Assembly (NCBI RefSeq): GCF_000382205.1
Contig: NZ_KB907793.1
Coordinates: forward strand, 62,001 to 126,000
DNA length: 64,000 nt
Source of the DNA: Dyadobacter beijingensis DSM 21582
Lineage (GTDB): Bacteria > Bacteroidota > Bacteroidia > Cytophagales > Spirosomataceae
Direction: 5' to 3'
Made by a program: the position numbers and the translations under genes. A model generated the notes under the pieces. The model searched no databases, was not told where the DNA came from, and worked only from the letters and a program-made list of their open reading frames with translations. This document shows positions 55,073-63,317 of this stretch, piece after piece (positions within the stretch are counted from its first letter, which is position 1; every line of letters starts with the position of its first letter).

Positions 55073-57919
55073 ATGAAACACCTTTACCATCCGACAGGAT
55101 CAAAACAGCACTATTTTGGGCTTTTACTTTTAGTTATCCTTTTTAGCCTGTCCAACGCGTTCGGCCAATGTCCGGCAAGCATTGACGTGATTTCCACGAG
55201 TATCACCACGGCGACCTGCCCTTCCAACGGGGCTTTTACCGTTAATGCCACTGCGGGAACCGGCGCCACCTACCAGATCACCTCGGGGCCGGTGGGTTTT
55301 CCAACCGGCGCTCAAAGCTCAAGCACATTTGAGGCTTTGCTGCCAGGTACCTACACCGTGAAGGTAGCGTGCTCGGATGATCCCAATGTGTTCACTACTA
55401 CCACCGTTGTGGTGCCCACTTCATATGTGCAGGTTGCGGCCAGTTCCGTGGCCGCCGATGTATGCGTGGGTGCAGGGGCGGGCGGGGTTATCAACACGAC
55501 CATTACCGCCGGCAGTGCTTCGCCTTATTCTTATGCATACTGGGTCGGTGATCCGGCCGAGAATGATCAGAACCTGACCTACCAGGTCCAGAACACAACC
55601 AGCCTGACCGACGCGCATGCGGTTCCCGCCTTTGGCAACTACAATGTGCGGGTTAAAGACGCGTGCGGGGTTTTCATCACCAGGGAGGTGACAGTAACAA
55701 GGGATATCCCCGAAAATCTCTGCGTGACCAGTGCGCGGCCTCGCCGGGATGGAATGACTTGTGCCGAGCTTCTAACGAGCATCAAGCTGGAACTCACATT
55801 TTCTTCTTTGTTTTCAGCATTACCCTATGGGAAGAGCATCGATGTGGAATTCTACGAGAATACAGGGACCTGTGCGTCGCCTGTTCAGGGGGCCTTGATT
55901 AAAACAGAAACTTATGATAATACCTCCCCATTTTATCCGACCGTAATTGTTCCCAATTTTATAAACTTGCTCATTGTCACCAAGACGCCCTGTGGTGATG
56001 TTTGTACCTATTGTTATGACTATGGGACGTCCTATCAGGCCGTAAGCATCAATTTCAGCATTCAGCCCAGGGGCTGCCCGGCATCGCCCAGCGATCCTAT
56101 TCCTTACAGCATCAATATCTCCGGTGGGGTTAATTATGTGTTACCGGTGACCTTTACCATCAAAAACAGCCTCGGAATCGATATTGCGGGCTCCCCCTAC
56201 GTAGCGACGACCGAGGCTGACTTGTGGCATGAATTTCCAAATCTTCCCCCTGATACTTACACGGTAGATGGAACAGATGCCTGTGGCGCGCCTCTTTCAG
56301 CCACGTTGAATTCCGGCACCGGCACACCGGTACCATTAGCCCTGGGAAGTATCGGCGGGTACGCGGGATGCACCACCATCGAAGGCCGCACCACCATGTC
56401 GGTGTACATTAGCGGCGAGATGGCCAACTATGGAAATGCGGTAGCGACGATCGTTGCAGGCCCCAATCTGGTCGGGGTTGCCGGTGTAAACCGCGCCTGG
56501 GGGGTATGGGAATGGCCCAACGCCATACCGGGCGCCACCTATACCATTGAAGTGAATAACCTTTGCGGTCAGACCGAGCAGGTAACGGTAACGCTGCCAT
56601 TGTCGGTGCAGACATTGGATCAGCACACAACGGCCACGGCGGAACAGCTGTGCGGCGGAACAGGTAATATCGTTATCGCAGCGACCAACAACGGCTACGG
56701 TACATTCAGTTTTGATGTGAAAAATAGTGCCAACGTAACTGTTGGTACAGGAACGGTGCCTGGGATAACGATCAGTAACCTGCCGCCTGACACTTACACC
56801 GTCAATAGCCACATGATTGGTTGCGGGCCCTACGATTACAGTAGTCAGGTCGAGATCCTTCCTGCCGGGCAGGGGCCGGTAATTACCAAGAAAATAGGCA
56901 TTATCTGTGAGGACGCCAACGGAGACCTCACGAGCACGGGCAATGCGCTGCTGGCTTTTACGGGTGCCAAACCGCTGAAATTCGAATACCGCCTGACTTC
57001 GGGAACTGATGCAGATTATGTGACATTGACCGGCGATTCGGATGGTACCGAGACCATTTCGGGATTAACACCCTACACATCGTACACTATCCGGGTGACA
57101 GACAATTGCGGAAACTCTACGGTAACGCAGGTTACCATCGGCAAGCTTGATCCTGTCAAAGTTGAGAATACACTGCAACCATGCGCGGGATCTTCCTATG
57201 CTCTAAGCGTACCGGATATGGTGGATGCTACCTATACCTGGACGAAGGACGGCGTTACGGTTTCCAATCAGCGTTCGATTAGTTTCAATCCTTATCAGGC
57301 ATCGGATGATGGAACATATGTTTGCACGATTAACATACTTGGTGGTTGTGTAACCCGGGTAACTACGGTCCAGCTTAGCAGTACCCATTGCAACCAACCT
57401 TTGCCTGTTACCCTGGTAAGTTTCGAGGCCGCAATTGTCGAAAACAAGGCAGTACTTACCTGGAAAACGACCAATGAAAAAGATTTCAGCCATTTCGAGA
57501 TCGAAAGAGGCAGTACCGCGACCTCGTTTAGCCCGATCGGCCACGTAGATGGGAACGCAGGGGGAAGATATTCTTTTGTGGACAAGGAAACCTTATCCGA
57601 TAACCAGTATTACCGGTTGAAGATGGTCGACAATGACGGAACTTATGCTTACAGCCGCATCAGGAGCCTGAACTTTAACCGTAACAGCTCCGGCGTCTAC
57701 CCCAATCCTGCCTCTGATTTCCTCATGGTAAATGCCAGGCTAAGTAAAACGATGAAATCGGTGGAACTGGTCAGCGCAAATGGCAGCACAGTTTACAAAA
57801 CAACGAATGTGCCTGCATCCGGCATCAATGTCAGCAAGTTTGCGCAGGGGATATATCTGATAAAAATAAAATCCAGGGATGGCAGTGAACATATTCAAAA
57901 GGTTTTCATAGCCAGATAG
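55073..57919 (+). CDS. Large surface protein with type IX secretion sorting domain
   Basis: 948 residues. Signal peptide (LLLLVILFSLSNAFG), then several beta-rich repeats of about 90-100 residues with Cys pairs, sharing PGTYTV/PPDTYTV turns (for example LLPGTYTVKVACS, LPPDTYTVDGTDACG, LPPDTYTVNS). An Ig-like domain follows (YTWTKDGVTVSNQRS, DDGTYVCTI), then a module LPVTLVSFEAAIVENKAVLTW and a C-terminal type A sorting domain from VYPNPASDFLMV to the end. Such proteins are moved through the outer membrane by T9SS and anchored at the surface; adhesion or matrix roles are likely. No catalytic domain is seen. Confidence 0.93.
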   Translation: MKHLYHPTGSKQHYFGLLLLVILFSLSNAFGQCPASIDVISTSITTATCPSNGAFTVNATAGTGATYQITSGPVGFPTGAQSSSTFEALLPGTYTVKVACSDDPNVFTTTTVVVPTSYVQVAASSVAADVCVGAGAGGVINTTITAGSASPYSYAYWVGDPAENDQNLTYQVQNTTSLTDAHAVPAFGNYNVRVKDACGVFITREVTVTRDIPENLCVTSARPRRDGMTCAELLTSIKLELTFSSLFSALPYGKSIDVEFYENTGTCASPVQGALIKTETYDNTSPFYPTVIVPNFINLLIVTKTPCGDVCTYCYDYGTSYQAVSINFSIQPRGCPASPSDPIPYSINISGGVNYVLPVTFTIKNSLGIDIAGSPYVATTEADLWHEFPNLPPDTYTVDGTDACGAPLSATLNSGTGTPVPLALGSIGGYAGCTTIEGRTTMSVYISGEMANYGNAVATIVAGPNLVGVAGVNRAWGVWEWPNAIPGATYTIEVNNLCGQTEQVTVTLPLSVQTLDQHTTATAEQLCGGTGNIVIAATNNGYGTFSFDVKNSANVTVGTGTVPGITISNLPPDTYTVNSHMIGCGPYDYSSQVEILPAGQGPVITKKIGIICEDANGDLTSTGNALLAFTGAKPLKFEYRLTSGTDADYVTLTGDSDGTETISGLTPYTSYTIRVTDNCGNSTVTQVTIGKLDPVKVENTLQPCAGSSYALSVPDMVDATYTWTKDGVTVSNQRSISFNPYQASDDGTYVCTINILGGCVTRVTTVQLSSTHCNQPLPVTLVSFEAAIVENKAVLTWKTTNEKDFSHFEIERGSTATSFSPIGHVDGNAGGRYSFVDKETLSDNQYYRLKMVDNDGTYAYSRIRSLNFNRNSSGVYPNPASDFLMVNARLSKTMKSVELVSANGSTVYKTTNVPASGINVSKFAQGIYLIKIKSRDGSEHIQKVFIAR

Positions 57920-58156
57920 GTGCAGTAATGCAACACTGGTTCGCTGGAACTACAAGGATTGGGTGGTCGATTTATAGCTTTTGGCAAAGCACTTTAATCG
58001 GCCGCCCCTTCTTTTGCAGGGATATCGGCAGATGCACATAGCGGACCGCTGGAAGCAAATCAAAGTCGGAGAATTTATTATTGAAATGCATGCGTCCATA
58101 TTTCTACGTTTTCCAGTCTCTATACCTGACTGATTTATAAACCCTTAAAATGTCCT

Positions 58157-59071
58157 ATGCTTCGCGCTACATGCATACTTACAACACTACTGGTCGCTGC
58201 GCTATTTGGGTGCAACAAGCTAATTAAAGTTAATCCAGATACCGATAGCGCCCCCGACCAAGCAGCTGCGGTTATCCGGAGCCGTTTCCCGGCAGCTTCC
58301 GATCTGGCTTTCAATACCCTGGTTAAGGGCCGGACCTGGGACGCTTCATTTCAAGTGAGCAACAGCCGTTATCGGTCCGTTGTGGATCGGACAAGCATTT
58401 TGACAACTTCCCGCTCCGGGAACGAAAGTCTTCATGATTCACTGGTAACATTAACTAACAACCTGTTTATGAGATGGGGAACGATCTCAAATATCCGGGA
58501 AGTGCTGCCGGATAATGGAACGGGCGCAATAAAATCCTCATACCTTGCCGACTACGCGTGGAAAGGAAACCTGTGGACGTTAAAAATCACTTTTGCCGAG
58601 CAGGGATCACCCTTTTATCACACCGTGACGATGATCCCGCGAATCGATCTTGAATATGTTACCGCTGATCTGGAGTCGCTTCCCGCGAAGGCGCAAGAGG
58701 TTCTCAAGGAAAAGGGACAATGGTCGGGCGTAGTCAGGGTACGTATAGACCATACCGGAAAGCGAACCTATCTAACTCCATTTTACAGATTCGATGATGA
58801 TGGGGTACCTTTTTTCACCGGTTTAAACAATGTCGTCAACTACGCCAGCATGGCAGAGATTTCGCCCGGTATCCACGACTATTTCAAGCATACCAGTGGT
58901 TTTTCAGAATTGAGTTTCTCGTCGGGAACCAGGTTCGATGACGGGAGTTGTGCTGGCTACTCGCTATATCTCGCCAATGATAATGAGAAAGTTTCTGAAA
59001 TGTTTCATTTCATTTTTTCAGGATCAGGGTACATCGTTACAGAATCCTATACGGCGTCAGTCAAGCCATAG
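58157..59071 (+). CDS. Lipoprotein of unknown function
   Basis: 304 residues. The signal peptide ends in lipobox LFGC (Cys about 20). No family recognised. The N-terminal part of the mature protein (AAVIRSRFPAASDLAFNTLVKGRTWDASFQVSNSRYRS) resembles the small beta-lactamase-inhibitor-like/PepSY-like folds of exported Bacteroidota proteins, but this is weak. It lies 64 bp before the ECF sigma gene on the same strand and might be in the same transcript or a target. Confidence 0.75.
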   Translation: MLRATCILTTLLVAALFGCNKLIKVNPDTDSAPDQAAAVIRSRFPAASDLAFNTLVKGRTWDASFQVSNSRYRSVVDRTSILTTSRSGNESLHDSLVTLTNNLFMRWGTISNIREVLPDNGTGAIKSSYLADYAWKGNLWTLKITFAEQGSPFYHTVTMIPRIDLEYVTADLESLPAKAQEVLKEKGQWSGVVRVRIDHTGKRTYLTPFYRFDDDGVPFFTGLNNVVNYASMAEISPGIHDYFKHTSGFSELSFSSGTRFDDGSCAGYSLYLANDNEKVSEMFHFIFSGSGYIVTESYTASVKP

Positions 59072-59135: not shown

Positions 59136-59732
59136 TTGAGACTTTCGATGTTTTTTAGTAAAAAAAACAGATTCCATGATGTAACCGAACTTGTAAAGGC
59201 GTGCCAACACATGGACAGGCGCGCGCAAAATATGTTGTATGAAAGATACATGAACAAAATGCTGGGGGTTTGCCGGAGATATGCGCGGACCAACCTTGAA
59301 GCAGAAGATATTTTCCAGGAAGCATTTATGAAAATCTTTCAGAAAATGAAGGACTTGAAAAATCCGCTTCTTTTAGACAGTTGGATTAAAACCATAGTCA
59401 TCAGGACGGCGATTGATTATTATCAACGCACCACAAAGAGCGAGAAACTTCAGGTGTGCCTGGATTCGATAGATTTTGAACGGGAATCCGGCGAGCATGA
59501 CAGGATTTTTTATCAACTGGATATGGAGATTTTAATCAATGTCATTAGTGAATTGCCTAATGGTTATCGGGCCGTAATCAACTTGTACTTTATCGACGGT
59601 CATACGCACGCCGAAATTGCCAAGCTACTTGGTATAGAGGAATCAACTTCAAAATCTCAATTGCGCAGGGGGAGAGACTTGCTCATTAAAAAATTGCAGA
59701 AGAAAGGAATCATGGCTTATGAAAGACTATGA
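59136..59732 (+). CDS. ECF sigma factor paired with a barrel-fused anti-sigma protein
   Basis: 198 residues. Sigma region 2 spans about 20-95 (YERYMNKMLGVCRRYARTNLEAEDIFQEAFMKIFQKMK, then LDSWIKTIVIRTAIDYYQR). Region 4 covers about 135-190 (LPNGYRAVINLYFIDGHTHAEIAKLLGIEESTSKSQLRRGRDLL). The first Met could also be the fifth residue. It overlaps the next gene by 14 bp, so the two are translationally coupled. That gene encodes no FecR domain but a membrane-anchored protein with a barrel-like C-terminus. Confidence 0.93.
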   Translation: MRLSMFFSKKNRFHDVTELVKACQHMDRRAQNMLYERYMNKMLGVCRRYARTNLEAEDIFQEAFMKIFQKMKDLKNPLLLDSWIKTIVIRTAIDYYQRTTKSEKLQVCLDSIDFERESGEHDRIFYQLDMEILINVISELPNGYRAVINLYFIDGHTHAEIAKLLGIEESTSKSQLRRGRDLLIKKLQKKGIMAYERL

Positions 59733-60960
59733 GGAGCACCCTGAAAATGCGTTAGGAAAGTTGCTAAGCGAAAGTTTTGCCGATTTCGAGCTTCCGGCAA
59801 ACCCCGCTTTAAAGGAAGAGCTTTTCAGGAAAATACCATCCCGGCGAAGTCCGTCCCGATTCTATATTTTACCCGTCATTTTAGTGATCGTGGGAAGCAC
59901 GTTTCTCCTGACTCGCGGACCACATCGTGAACCTGGCTCACCAAGCTTTTCAAAAGCCAGCGGAATAGTTGCCAAGGGAAAGGTTAGGACAGCATCACCC
60001 GTAGTCGACCAGGGCGGGGAAAGGATAGCGTCGGCAGACCCGACGGCGGAAGACCATCGCATACCGACTCGGCCGGTACGAATCGGTCAAATGCAAACCG
60101 AAATACGTCAGCACCGCGGCACCCCTAACACCTTGGGCGAGGTGGAGACAGCGCTTTTCGCAAATGACAACAAGCAGATCTACGTCCAGCGAGAAGGGCT
60201 CCCCGGCACATTAATCGACTCGCTCTCGCCAGGCATCATCCCGCTTTTAAAGCCAGTGCCCTTCCGTGAAATTCCGGGACCGGCCTTGCCATGCAGGATG
60301 CAATCGGCATTCCCGACAGGGGAACAGCATGACATACCAGGTTCCGATGTCAAACGGACTGCAAGAGCATTTGCGCCTAAATGGTCGCTTTCAGTCACGC
60401 CCATGCAATCATTTCAGGTTATGAAGTTATGGTCTTCACCGCAATTGAGTCTTCAGAATATCCGGTTTTCACCCGTCTTGTCATTGCAATCGAAGGCAAT
60501 GAAAGTTTCGGGGGGTCTGGAGGCATTTGGGGTGGGCCTCCTGGCTAGTTACAGCTACATCGGCAATCGTGTCCATTTTGAAACGGCCACGGATGAGTAC
60601 ATCGTCGTACCTTCTGACAACCAAAGCTATGCTGTTATCCGAAAAGGAATGCCGTTGGTAAGAGAGGAAAGCCTCAATCTGCTGAGCATCGGAATACGGA
60701 AAAATATCACTTTGGGCCGCGGCCGCCTCAGTAATTATCGCGGAGCCATCGGCCTGGACTACTCACGCATTCTTGCCAAAAAACGAAGCATCACGATGGC
60801 CGGCATTGGCATATACCGGCAGTGGAGTTTTGGAACAAATGCTAGTCTCTTCGTCGGCCCCTACGCGCAGGTGGGGCTTACACAACGGGTCGTGATTCCC
60901 GGTATCTGGAAATACAGACCTTACCAGTTAGGGATTTCTGTCGGGATCCGAAAAAATTAA
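59719..60960 (+). CDS. Putative dual-membrane-spanning anti-sigma factor (inner-membrane anchor plus outer-membrane barrel)
   Basis: 413 residues in four parts. Residues 1-46 are cytoplasmic and charged, of the size of a minimal anti-sigma region. Residues 48-65 form one membrane helix (FYILPVILVIVGSTFLLT). Residues 66-215 are a low-complexity linker rich in Pro, Ser, Thr, Gly and Arg. Residues 219-413 are alternating amphipathic strands ending LGISVGIRKN, fitting an 8-strand outer-membrane barrel of the porin/OmpA-like type. The arrangement matches the Dma proteins reported from Bacteroides thetaiotaomicron, in which one chain joins both membranes and holds an ECF sigma factor. Overlaps the sigma gene by 14 bp. 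No signal peptide. Confidence 0.75.
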   Translation: MKDYEEHPENALGKLLSESFADFELPANPALKEELFRKIPSRRSPSRFYILPVILVIVGSTFLLTRGPHREPGSPSFSKASGIVAKGKVRTASPVVDQGGERIASADPTAEDHRIPTRPVRIGQMQTEIRQHRGTPNTLGEVETALFANDNKQIYVQREGLPGTLIDSLSPGIIPLLKPVPFREIPGPALPCRMQSAFPTGEQHDIPGSDVKRTARAFAPKWSLSVTPMQSFQVMKLWSSPQLSLQNIRFSPVLSLQSKAMKVSGGLEAFGVGLLASYSYIGNRVHFETATDEYIVVPSDNQSYAVIRKGMPLVREESLNLLSIGIRKNITLGRGRLSNYRGAIGLDYSRILAKKRSITMAGIGIYRQWSFGTNASLFVGPYAQVGLTQRVVIPGIWKYRPYQLGISVGIRKN

Positions 60961-61313
60961 TGAATCCGCTTGCTGTACGGTCCCTTCGTCACTTAGCAGG
61001 GTTAATTCTTCATAAATCAAACTGGGTTAACTTCTTGCTCAGCTACCATCTCGGCTGTCAAGTAAATTCGACAGTGAATTAGGATTAATTGTTACATCGA
61101 CCGGTTTTTTGCGAAGTACATTTACGGTAACCAAAGTTCTAAGCCAAAGTTTTTGCCTTATCCGACAGGATAATACTGCTACTTTTTGGCCTGGTGCTCA
61201 CTGTGCAGGTAACGGCTCACGCCAGCATTCGCTATAACCCGGCGGGGATGGCTTCCGGGCGGGCGCGGGCCGGGTTAGTACTTCCTTGTTTCAATTAAAA
61301 CTATTCTGATTTG
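60961..61313. other. 350-bp intergenic stretch with a possible signal-peptide relic
   Basis: No intact gene. Frame 61155-61298 reads SDRIILLLFGLVLTVQVTAHASIRYNPAG and then a basic stretch to a stop. It looks like the signal peptide and first residues of an exported protein, but it has no ATG. The remainder holds nothing that I recognise. Confidence 0.4.
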
Positions 61314-63317
61314 ATGAAAAAATTACTTCTGAAGACCGCTTTCGGACTCATGCTCTCGGGTCTCTTTTTCCCTACGGTAAATGCGCAGGTAGGCGTCGGT
61401 ACTTTGACCCCGGACGCAAGCGCACAGTTGGACGTGACATCGGCAACGAAGGGGGTACTTGTATCGCGTATGACATCTGCCCAGCGCGGGGCTATTGCAA
61501 GCCCTGCCGATGGTCTGCTCGTATATGATACAGACACGAAAGGTTTTTGGTACCACAAAACCGGTACCGGCTGGACACAGATCAACAATGCGACGTTGTC
61601 ATTGCCCTATGCGGGAAATGAGAATAATGGAGGCACGTTATTTTCGATCACCAACGAGGGAGATGGCACTTCGCTGGAAGGCGTCAACAACAGCATTACC
61701 TCAAGCGTCAGTGCGGTAAGGGGCATTGTGTCCTCTGCTAGTCCGGGGGGCTTCTCTACGGGCGTACGCGGCATTAATAACGGTACCGGGGGACTTGGTA
61801 TTGGCGTCTGGGGCTCGCACGCCGGTTCGGGCTGGGGCGTGTATGGCGTCACTCCTAACGGCATAGGCGTGTACGGGAATGCAAGTGCAAACGGTTACGG
61901 CGTATATGCCAATAGCAACGCCGGCACTGGTCTGTTTGCGGCCAGTAGTAATGGGATACCGGCAAATTTTGCCATTAACAACAATGCTAATAATAACAAC
62001 GTACTAAATGCCAGCACAGTAGGGAACGGCACTGTTGTCAATATAAGTACCACTGGTAATGGCAGAGGTGTGCTGAGTTCTACGGGCGCGGGTATTGCTG
62101 TACATGGCATCACCAACAACCAGACATCAGCGGGTATATTGGGCAATAACAGTGGTGCGGGGGAGGCCGTTGTGGGCCTCACTACCAGCGACATTGCAGG
62201 TGCGGTAGTCGGCCGTAATGATGGGGCAGGATATGGGGTAAGGGGATTTATAGCAACGAACACCAGCGGCACGGCCATCGCCGTTTATGGACAGGTGGGG
62301 ATAAACAGCAGTACCGGTCGGGCCGGCCGTTTTCAGAATTATAACGCCGCTAATACCACAGCTAATACGCTGGAGGTAGAAACGAATGGTAACGGGAATC
62401 CTGATAATACGCAAGGTAATGCTGCCTCTTTCCTGGTGGATAATACCAACAGCGTGGCAGCAGCGGTGAGAGGAGAGGTGACAAGTACGCTCAGCAGTTT
62501 CGGTGCAGCGGGACTGTTTGGGGTTTCCTCGGGTACCGGGGGCTTTGCAGGTCTGTTCCATGCGTCGAACCCCGCTGGCAATGGCCCGGCCCTGGTAGCG
62601 ATAGCAGACGGTCATGGTAATGGCGTAACCGCCAATGCAGGCATCGAAGGACATGGCGTAGAAGCTACCGCAGACGGGACCGGCAATGCGGTTTTTGCCT
62701 GGACGCCCAGTTTCAGTAATGGCAAAGCAGCTCAGTTTGTAAATTATAATACTGCCAATACAAAACCGGTGCTTACCGCTGAAACACACAGCAACGGCAA
62801 TATTGCGTTGTTTAAAAGCGGAAACCCTGCTACTGTAAATGTAGCACGTATCGATGCTAATGGAAAGGGTTTTTTTAATGGCGGTACGCAGAGCAGCGGG
62901 GCCGACCTGGCAGAAGCTTTTGACGTGATAAGCGAAGTGTCTGAATATGAGCCGGGAGATATTTTAAGCATTGCCACTACGAAGGACCGGACCGTGGAAA
63001 AAAGCAATGGAGCCTACTCTTCCCTGGTATTGGGCGTGTATGCAACGAAGCCTGGTGTTTTGCTTACCGAAGAGAATATCGACAGCAACCTGTCCGGAAA
63101 AGTGCCTTTGGGTGTGGTGGGCGTCATCCCGACCAAGGTATGCAAAGAGGGTGGTGCTATTCTGCGGGGAGATTTACTCGTTACTTCAACCATCCCCGGT
63201 GTCGCTATGAAAGCCGATCCGGCCAGGGTAAAACCCGGACAAATTATAGGTAAGGCTTTGCAAAATTTTGATGATGACCGGATTGGTAAAATCAATGTGT
63301 TTGTAAACATTAAATAA
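61314..63317 (+). CDS. Repeat-rich exported surface protein (beta-roll type)
   Basis: 667 residues. ATG at 61314 (the frame is open from a TTG one codon earlier). Signal peptide (TAFGLMLSGLFFPTVNAQ), a common Bacteroidota opening GVGTLTPDASAQLDVTSATKGVLVSRMT, then about 400 residues of short imperfect Gly/Asn/Val repeats (GVWGSHAGSGWGVYG, NGIGVYGNASANGYGVYAN, NGHGVTANAG) typical of solenoid or fibre proteins. The conserved C-terminal domain begins SGADLAEAFDVISEVSEYEPGD and ends IGKINVFVNIK. No known catalytic site. Fibre- or adhesin-like; the exact role is unknown. Confidence 0.85.
   Translation: MKKLLLKTAFGLMLSGLFFPTVNAQVGVGTLTPDASAQLDVTSATKGVLVSRMTSAQRGAIASPADGLLVYDTDTKGFWYHKTGTGWTQINNATLSLPYAGNENNGGTLFSITNEGDGTSLEGVNNSITSSVSAVRGIVSSASPGGFSTGVRGINNGTGGLGIGVWGSHAGSGWGVYGVTPNGIGVYGNASANGYGVYANSNAGTGLFAASSNGIPANFAINNNANNNNVLNASTVGNGTVVNISTTGNGRGVLSSTGAGIAVHGITNNQTSAGILGNNSGAGEAVVGLTTSDIAGAVVGRNDGAGYGVRGFIATNTSGTAIAVYGQVGINSSTGRAGRFQNYNAANTTANTLEVETNGNGNPDNTQGNAASFLVDNTNSVAAAVRGEVTSTLSSFGAAGLFGVSSGTGGFAGLFHASNPAGNGPALVAIADGHGNGVTANAGIEGHGVEATADGTGNAVFAWTPSFSNGKAAQFVNYNTANTKPVLTAETHSNGNIALFKSGNPATVNVARIDANGKGFFNGGTQSSGADLAEAFDVISEVSEYEPGDILSIATTKDRTVEKSNGAYSSLVLGVYATKPGVLLTEENIDSNLSGKVPLGVVGVIPTKVCKEGGAILRGDLLVTSTIPGVAMKADPARVKPGQIIGKALQNFDDDRIGKINVFVNIK

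Follow-up and report, generated by a model that had tools for sequence, protein, structure and literature searches.

The 7.4 Mb genome of Dyadobacter beijingensis carries, within the 64,000-nucleotide stretch of DNA analysed here (the window), a three-gene module in which a lipoprotein gene precedes the overlapping genes of an ECF sigma factor and its putative anti-sigma factor. Gene order, homology, architecture and a conserved promoter element, each read from sequence or predicted, make it likely that this module is a Dma-type envelope-switch operon, in which the lipoprotein and the sigma factor are accompanied by a one-chain anti-sigma factor that responds to barrel assembly or to the state of the outer membrane. 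Systems of this kind are already known from gut Bacteroides as Dma/Das and EcfO-Reo, and what is new is the bacterial group, a lipoprotein that is conserved as partner, a promoter signature that can be put to use, and a few related putative anti-sigma factors that end in a type IX secretion-like domain.

The sigma factor and its membrane-anchored partner

All features of the module are on the forward strand. The sigma factor gene (59148..59732, 194 amino acids) was assigned by domain matches, family profile and length among relatives. TIGR02937 scores 86.7 bits against a cut-off of 42.9, Sigma70_r2 and Sigma70_r4_2 are also above cut-off, and the length is 194 amino acids at 20 of the 30 same-genus loci examined. 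The true start is probably the ATG at 59148 and not the TTG at 59136, which would give 198 amino acids. The preliminary description of this DNA had called an ECF sigma gene overlapping the next gene by 14 nucleotides, and both statements are correct, the overlap occupying 59719-59732. The two genes overlap at all 30 same-genus loci, by exactly 14 nucleotides at 20 of them.

The second gene of the pair (59719..60960, stop codon included) encodes a protein of 413 amino acids that homology, gene order and structural model identify as a Dma-type anti-sigma factor. Pfam and NCBIfam searches returned no match up to E = 1, and therefore no FecR domain is detected, as had been claimed. Likewise, the 30 same-genus relatives have no meaningful match, the best being to an ion-channel family at E 0.0018. 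An AlphaFold model built with 29 sequences has helices at residues 8-21, 29-38 and 46-65, pLDDT below 50 at residues 67-175 and 188-214, and eight strands between residues 221 and 412 with block means of 86-98; the low values for the model as a whole (mean pLDDT 71.2, pTM 0.53) are due to the tether. On this basis residues 1-45 (59719..59853), which hold the first two helices and are matched by an N-terminal profile, are the predicted cytoplasmic sigma-binding domain. Residues 46-65 (59854..59913) are the transmembrane helix, as indicated by the model and the flanking sequence, residues 66-220 (59914..60378) are a tether with pLDDT below 50 over most of its length, and residues 221-413 (60379..60957) are an 8-stranded barrel of the outer-membrane type. 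The single membrane helix and the linker of about 150 residues that had been proposed from the letters are thus borne out by the model, and for the C-terminal half the predicted structure favors a barrel over a soluble periplasmic fold. Across 29 rows of alignment A3 the tether spans approximately 118-264 residues.

The barrel aligns with OmpA (9fzc) at Z 15.4 and rmsd 2.8 over 156 residues. Its best fold matches are the outer-membrane barrels OmpA, NspA, OprF and OmpW (Z about 12-16), and the top Foldseek rows are also outer-membrane barrels; a PDB sequence search with the Dyadobacter-only alignment A1 gave nothing below E 0.09. Soluble barrels of the PsbO type match as well, at Z about 9-10, and the final residue of the protein is not aromatic, which counts against an outer-membrane barrel. 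Both observations would suit an inner-membrane anti-sigma factor whose periplasmic part is a soluble barrel or ligand-binding domain that does not cross the outer membrane. We consider such an arrangement improbable in view of the higher-scoring outer-membrane matches, the long disordered tether kept in the family, and the end of the barrel. Outer-membrane barrels carry a beta-signal pattern at the C-terminus; that of the window protein, QLGISVGI, fits it loosely, as do 29 of 30 A1 rows, 2 of 4 Bacteroides rows and 28 of 53 others, counts that stand without a chance control.

An ECF sigma gene that adjoins the gene of a transmembrane partner, in a genome with 72 Sigma70_r2 matches, could also suggest an ordinary FecR-type anti-sigma factor of cell-surface signaling that works with a TonB-dependent receptor. 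FecI-FecR likewise conveys an outer-membrane event to an ECF sigma factor through an anti-sigma factor, but it relies on a TonB-dependent receptor that is a protein of its own and on a FecR domain, and neither was found at the window locus: the protein has no FecR or other domain match, AlphaFold places the barrel within the same chain, and no receptor gene adjoins the pair in the window. The FecR-type reading is contradicted by this domain content, and we give it almost no credence.

Homologues of the anti-sigma factor are present in 39 of 48 same-genus genomes (E <= 0.001), and at all of the best 30 loci, which were examined individually, an ECF-like ORF lies directly upstream; the pairing is therefore not due to chance. 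In the D. beijingensis genome itself there are three close copies, that of the window together with L073 and L074, and the ORFs after its sigma factors L159, L163, L168, L169 and L170 also match the N-terminal domain profile. In a profile search of the phylum with A1, 21 of 296 genomes gave a match, those outside the family being mostly in the N-terminus and the low-complexity tether. Sigma factor divergence correlates with that of the N-terminus, barrel and lipoprotein across 24 loci (Mantel r 0.81-0.96, reached in 0 of 1000 permutations), a correlation that shared inheritance also explains. The sigma factor nearest to that of the window in the tree, L180:1694-2278 of the same genome, belongs to the window's subclade and is followed by neither a Dma nor a lipoprotein gene; a truncated TonB-receptor-like ORF precedes this orphan. 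Two further sigma ORFs of the genome, L075 and L076 (421 and 423 amino acids), were considered as Dma3-like fusions and rejected, as their C-terminal extension, judged by eye from sequence, lacks a TM-barrel part. A Dma3-like locus was seen in G277 (L070:1922-3414), where the sigma ORF runs into a TM segment and is followed by a separate, overlapping barrel-like ORF.

Kinship with the Dma/Das and EcfO-Reo systems

In the available excerpts of PMC13088901, a Dma protein is defined by an N-terminal anti-sigma domain, a TM helix, a disordered tether and a C-terminal barrel, encoded beside an ECF21 sigma factor. The same excerpts describe das2-dma2 as followed by DUF4943 and DUF4858 genes plus an enoyl-reductase-like gene, and report that Dma1 and Dma2 repress their sigma factor and that their loss raises vesiculation. 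The portions of PMC13114119 and PMC9308784 at hand give an ecfO-reo-nigD arrangement in P. vulgatus. We picked Bacteroides-type Das/Dma loci by gene content, and judged ECF21 membership by kinship to Das-like sigma factors. Of 395 genomes searched across the phylum, 3 contain DUF4943; its neighborhood shows the order das2-dma2-DUF4943-DUF4858 in G285 and G277, and in G147 the 8 kb around it contain no sigma-Dma pair. In both G285 and G277 the best match to the sigma profile of the window family (A2) is the das2-like sigma factor of this operon. The second-best match is a sigma factor followed by a Dma-like protein of 409 or 425 amino acids and a divergent NigD gene, which corresponds to the P. 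vulgatus arrangement. Compared directly with four Das1/Das2-like sigma factors, the sigma profile gives E 5.4e-39, and in the sigma tree the window clade joins the Das1/2/3-like sigma factors in a group of 14 of the 82 tips with support 0.765, or of 16 tips with support 0.928.

The other parts of the pair point in the same direction. A profile made from 54 other ECF-linked N-termini, all from other genera, finds residues 4-55 of the window protein (E 1.4e-5 among 103 test sequences) and four Dma1/Dma2-like proteins (E 6e-9 to 4e-4); the next of the ORFs that follow the surveyed sigma genes scores E 0.23. It finds 22 of the 23 clade loci of the test set, L098 not being among the matches listed. 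A barrel profile from A3 matches the four Dma1/2-like barrels at E 2.3e-9 over 101 columns, a comparison that has no unrelated-barrel control, and with the Dyadobacter-only A1 the match is much weaker (E 2.3e-4, probability 44%). The window pair thus has a Das-related sigma factor alongside, an N-terminal domain recognized by homology, one TM helix, a tether and a barrel. Sigma homology, the N-terminal and barrel profiles and the architecture support its placement with the Dma/Das (EcfO-Reo) systems, and the Dma/Das-like character first proposed for it holds.

As far as the excerpts of PMC13088901 go, the Bacteroides Dma/Das systems share with the window both the ECF sigma factor and an anti-sigma factor of N-terminal domain, TM helix, tether and barrel. 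The two differ in their neighbors, since Das1 has NigD alongside and Dma2 has DUF4943/DUF4858 after it, whereas the window has a PepSY/BLIP-like lipoprotein upstream in the operon. In addition, the window barrel, with about 193 residues, has no Pfam match, unlike Bacteroides Dma. EcfO-Reo of Bacteroides fragilis and Phocaeicola vulgatus, as the parts of PMC9308784 and PMC13114119 to hand describe it, has the same anti-sigma factor reaching from cytoplasm to surface through a C-terminal barrel, with sigma and lipoprotein genes adjoining; its lipoprotein regulon is NigD, whereas the conserved lipoprotein of the window is of another fold family.

The lipoprotein partner and the operon promoter

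The lipoprotein gene (58157..59071) encodes 304 amino acids with a lipobox cysteine, Cys19, that is invariant in 25 of 25 lipoprotein rows. Its AlphaFold model (mean pLDDT 88.2, pTM 0.82) has a PepSY/BLIP-like fold, matching BLIP-like BF1215 (4fr9) at Z 9.6 and rmsd 2.9 over 133 residues, and BDI_1975 (3u1w) at Z 9.2 and rmsd 10.0 over 186 residues. The fold is common to the PepSY-like/BLIP-like (DUF2874) periplasmic proteins to which these two belong, but the window lipoprotein is about twice the length of 4fr9, is tied to the sigma-Dma operon and gave nothing in Pfam searches up to E = 1 or 5, thus no match to NigD or PepSY_like. The lipoproteins of the paralogous loci L073 and L074 match PepSY_like (PF11396) below cut-off (22.6 and 17.8 against 28.3 bits), and NigD genes adjoin the Das1-like loci L068 and L069. 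With a profile from the three own-genome copies, a homologue was found at 30 of the 31 clade loci (L077-L107), L100 being the exception, and at 0 of the 49 outside loci (L108-L156). The gene directly adjoins the pair at 29 of the 31: 27 lie within 400 nt of the sigma gene by script, and L095 and L099, which the script missed because of the sigma start chosen, complete the count; at L103 the distance is about 500 nt. The new feature of the window clade is therefore that a PepSY/BLIP-like lipoprotein precedes the pair, where Bacteroides has NigD or DUF4943 lipoproteins.

Pfam and NCBIfam searches identified a protein with a type IX secretion system (T9SS) tail at 55073-57919, upstream of the lipoprotein gene, so that both the lipoprotein and the surface protein named beforehand as neighbors are present. 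The suggestion that the flanking genes form the regulon stands for the lipoprotein gene alone, on account of the promoter described below; it does not hold for the T9SS gene or the gene of a 668-amino-acid protein downstream, neither of which is kept beside the Dma operon of the G029 orthologue. Repeats rich in glycine and asparagine are numerous in the 668-amino-acid protein (61311-63317), for which Pfam gave no match. At the G029 locus (L230:784-2109) the gene of a PQQ-propeller-like lipoprotein, absent from the window, overlaps the end of the Dma gene.

The dyad TGCAAC-N17-GTGTC, which we spotted by eye in 28 operon upstream regions, is predicted to be a promoter heading Dma-type operons. 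Allowing up to two mismatches, it is present in 15 of the 28, at 8 of them without any mismatch, whereas 200 shuffles averaged 0.53 and never exceeded 4. The count was made on the same sequences in which the motif had been spotted; other spacings gave 0-7 and the reverse strand 4. The 48 Dyadobacter genomes hold 86 exact copies, 18 of which precede one of 73 Dma matches on its own strand at a distance below 4.5 kb, with 0.04 expected; 5 of these were among the motif-finding sites and 13 are independent of them. None of the 86 lies downstream of a Dma match. Two exact copies upstream of Dma operons are on the other strand (G001:C2:217460 and G004:C1:1744720) and may point at a divergent neighbor as a further target. 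A variant, TGCAGC-N16-GTGTC, occurs at L073, L077, L078 and L080, and at L073, L078 and L080 it heads longer operons, before the first gene. Outside the clade, TGCAAC-N16-GTGTC with up to two mismatches is found within 300 nt of the sigma gene at 16 of 45 loci (shuffle mean 0.9, maximum 4), spacing 18 at 9 (shuffle mean 1.17, maximum 4) and spacing 17 at none. No copy was found at the operons of L082-L085 and L095, and no convincing one in the upstream regions of the Bacteroides Das1-like loci; both das2-like upstream regions have TGCAGC-N15-GCGTC, which is suggestive only.

The window copy, TGCGTC-N17-CAGTC (58091..58118), is degenerate, with mismatches at 4 of the 11 consensus bases, and has the position and spacing seen in related operons. 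In the comparison with the G029 orthologue it falls in the sole upstream block of strong conservation, where 40 of 45 columns are identical as opposed to 41% of the remaining 203. The site is therefore probably real, but its sigma specificity has probably drifted. We also sought an own-genome regulon from the exact promoter, and rejected it for want of enrichment (allowing one mismatch at most, the dyad has 42 sites and the reversed control 59). In the literature searched there was no report of the PepSY lipoprotein link, of the promoter dyad or of a T9SS-tailed anti-sigma factor; an EcfO promoter motif could be in print.

With a predicted promoter before its gene, the lipoprotein would be co-expressed with the switch, which leads to the question of its role. 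It could be a sensor or ligand that binds the barrel or tether and sets sigma release. The strict linkage to the clade would suit such a role, as would the correlation of its divergence with that of the barrel (r 0.82) and of the sigma factor (r 0.81) over 24 loci, which shared descent alone could give. The common promoter before the lipoprotein gene speaks against it, as does the finding, in the available text of PMC13114119, that neighboring NigD lipoproteins in Bacteroides are outputs of the regulon. A sensor thus seems possible but on balance unlikely, and by analogy with NigD the lipoprotein is more likely an output.

Proposed mechanism and relatives with type IX secretion-like tails

From the predicted architecture we infer sigma binding, BAM dependence, the signal, proteolysis and autoregulation as follows. 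The sigma factor would be retained in the cytoplasm by the N-terminal 45 residues. Residues 46-65 would fix the protein in the inner membrane, a disordered stretch of about 150 residues would cross the periplasm, and the last 193 residues would fold into a barrel whose insertion into the outer membrane is probably carried out by BAM. The signal most likely arises when barrel assembly, or the surrounding outer membrane, fails or is disturbed. In support of such a signal, the portions of PMC13114119 and PMC9308784 at hand list ecfO-reo with the genes that BcpT and Bd-A induce most strongly, and describe Bd-A as binding and inhibiting BamA. The chain would then be altered or degraded, and this degradation, or a pull, would free the sigma factor, which would then start transcription of its own operon at the promoter ahead of the lipoprotein gene. 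The lipoprotein would most likely act at the outer membrane, as output or feedback partner.

Relatives of the anti-sigma factor may be attached to another machine. Among 53 complete partner proteins of loci L100-L156, OMP_b-brl_2 was found in 14, OMP_b-brl in 3 and CHU_C, the signal domain for type IX secretion, in 8 (E <= 0.001). CHU_C is above the Pfam cut-off in four of the eight (L127:6559-7629, L134:6518-7834, L146:2606-3439 and L152:755-2092) and below it in the weaker L137, L144, L151 and L155; the NCBIfam type B sorting model is above cut-off in L127 only. All eight have a TM helix near the N-terminus, and PKD and/or CHU_C C-terminal domains in place of the barrel. An N-terminal profile trained without them recovers six of the eight at E <= 0.011 and separates less cleanly (own-genome L168 at 0.12 and L163 at 0.27, unrelated L176 at 0.21). 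Seven of their sigma factors form a clade with support 0.79, six of these with 0.992. A phylum search with a PKD/CHU_C alignment (A8) matched generic T9SS proteins and so gives no prevalence. These tailed partners may be anti-sigma factors that are coupled to type IX secretion; the tails could be plain Ig-like domains rather than sorting signals. Speculatively, and with more doubt than belief, one may see the ECF21-type partners at large as 'sentinel client' anti-sigma factors, composed of an anchor, a tether and a domain that is a client of an outer-membrane machine (mostly barrel and BAM, in some cases T9SS), with the state of the machine read through the chain and each system's own lipoprotein or effector co-expressed from a common TGCAAC...TGTC promoter.

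Free-living Dyadobacter are densely populated with this family, of which the present genome alone has three close members; they provide many natural variants and a candidate partner protein of predicted structure, and the promoter dyad can be used for finding regulon genes. The relatives with T9SS-like tails suggest that one inner-membrane module can be connected to more than one kind of outer-membrane machine, and the question of the signal is thereby open to tail swaps or to a block of BAM or T9SS.
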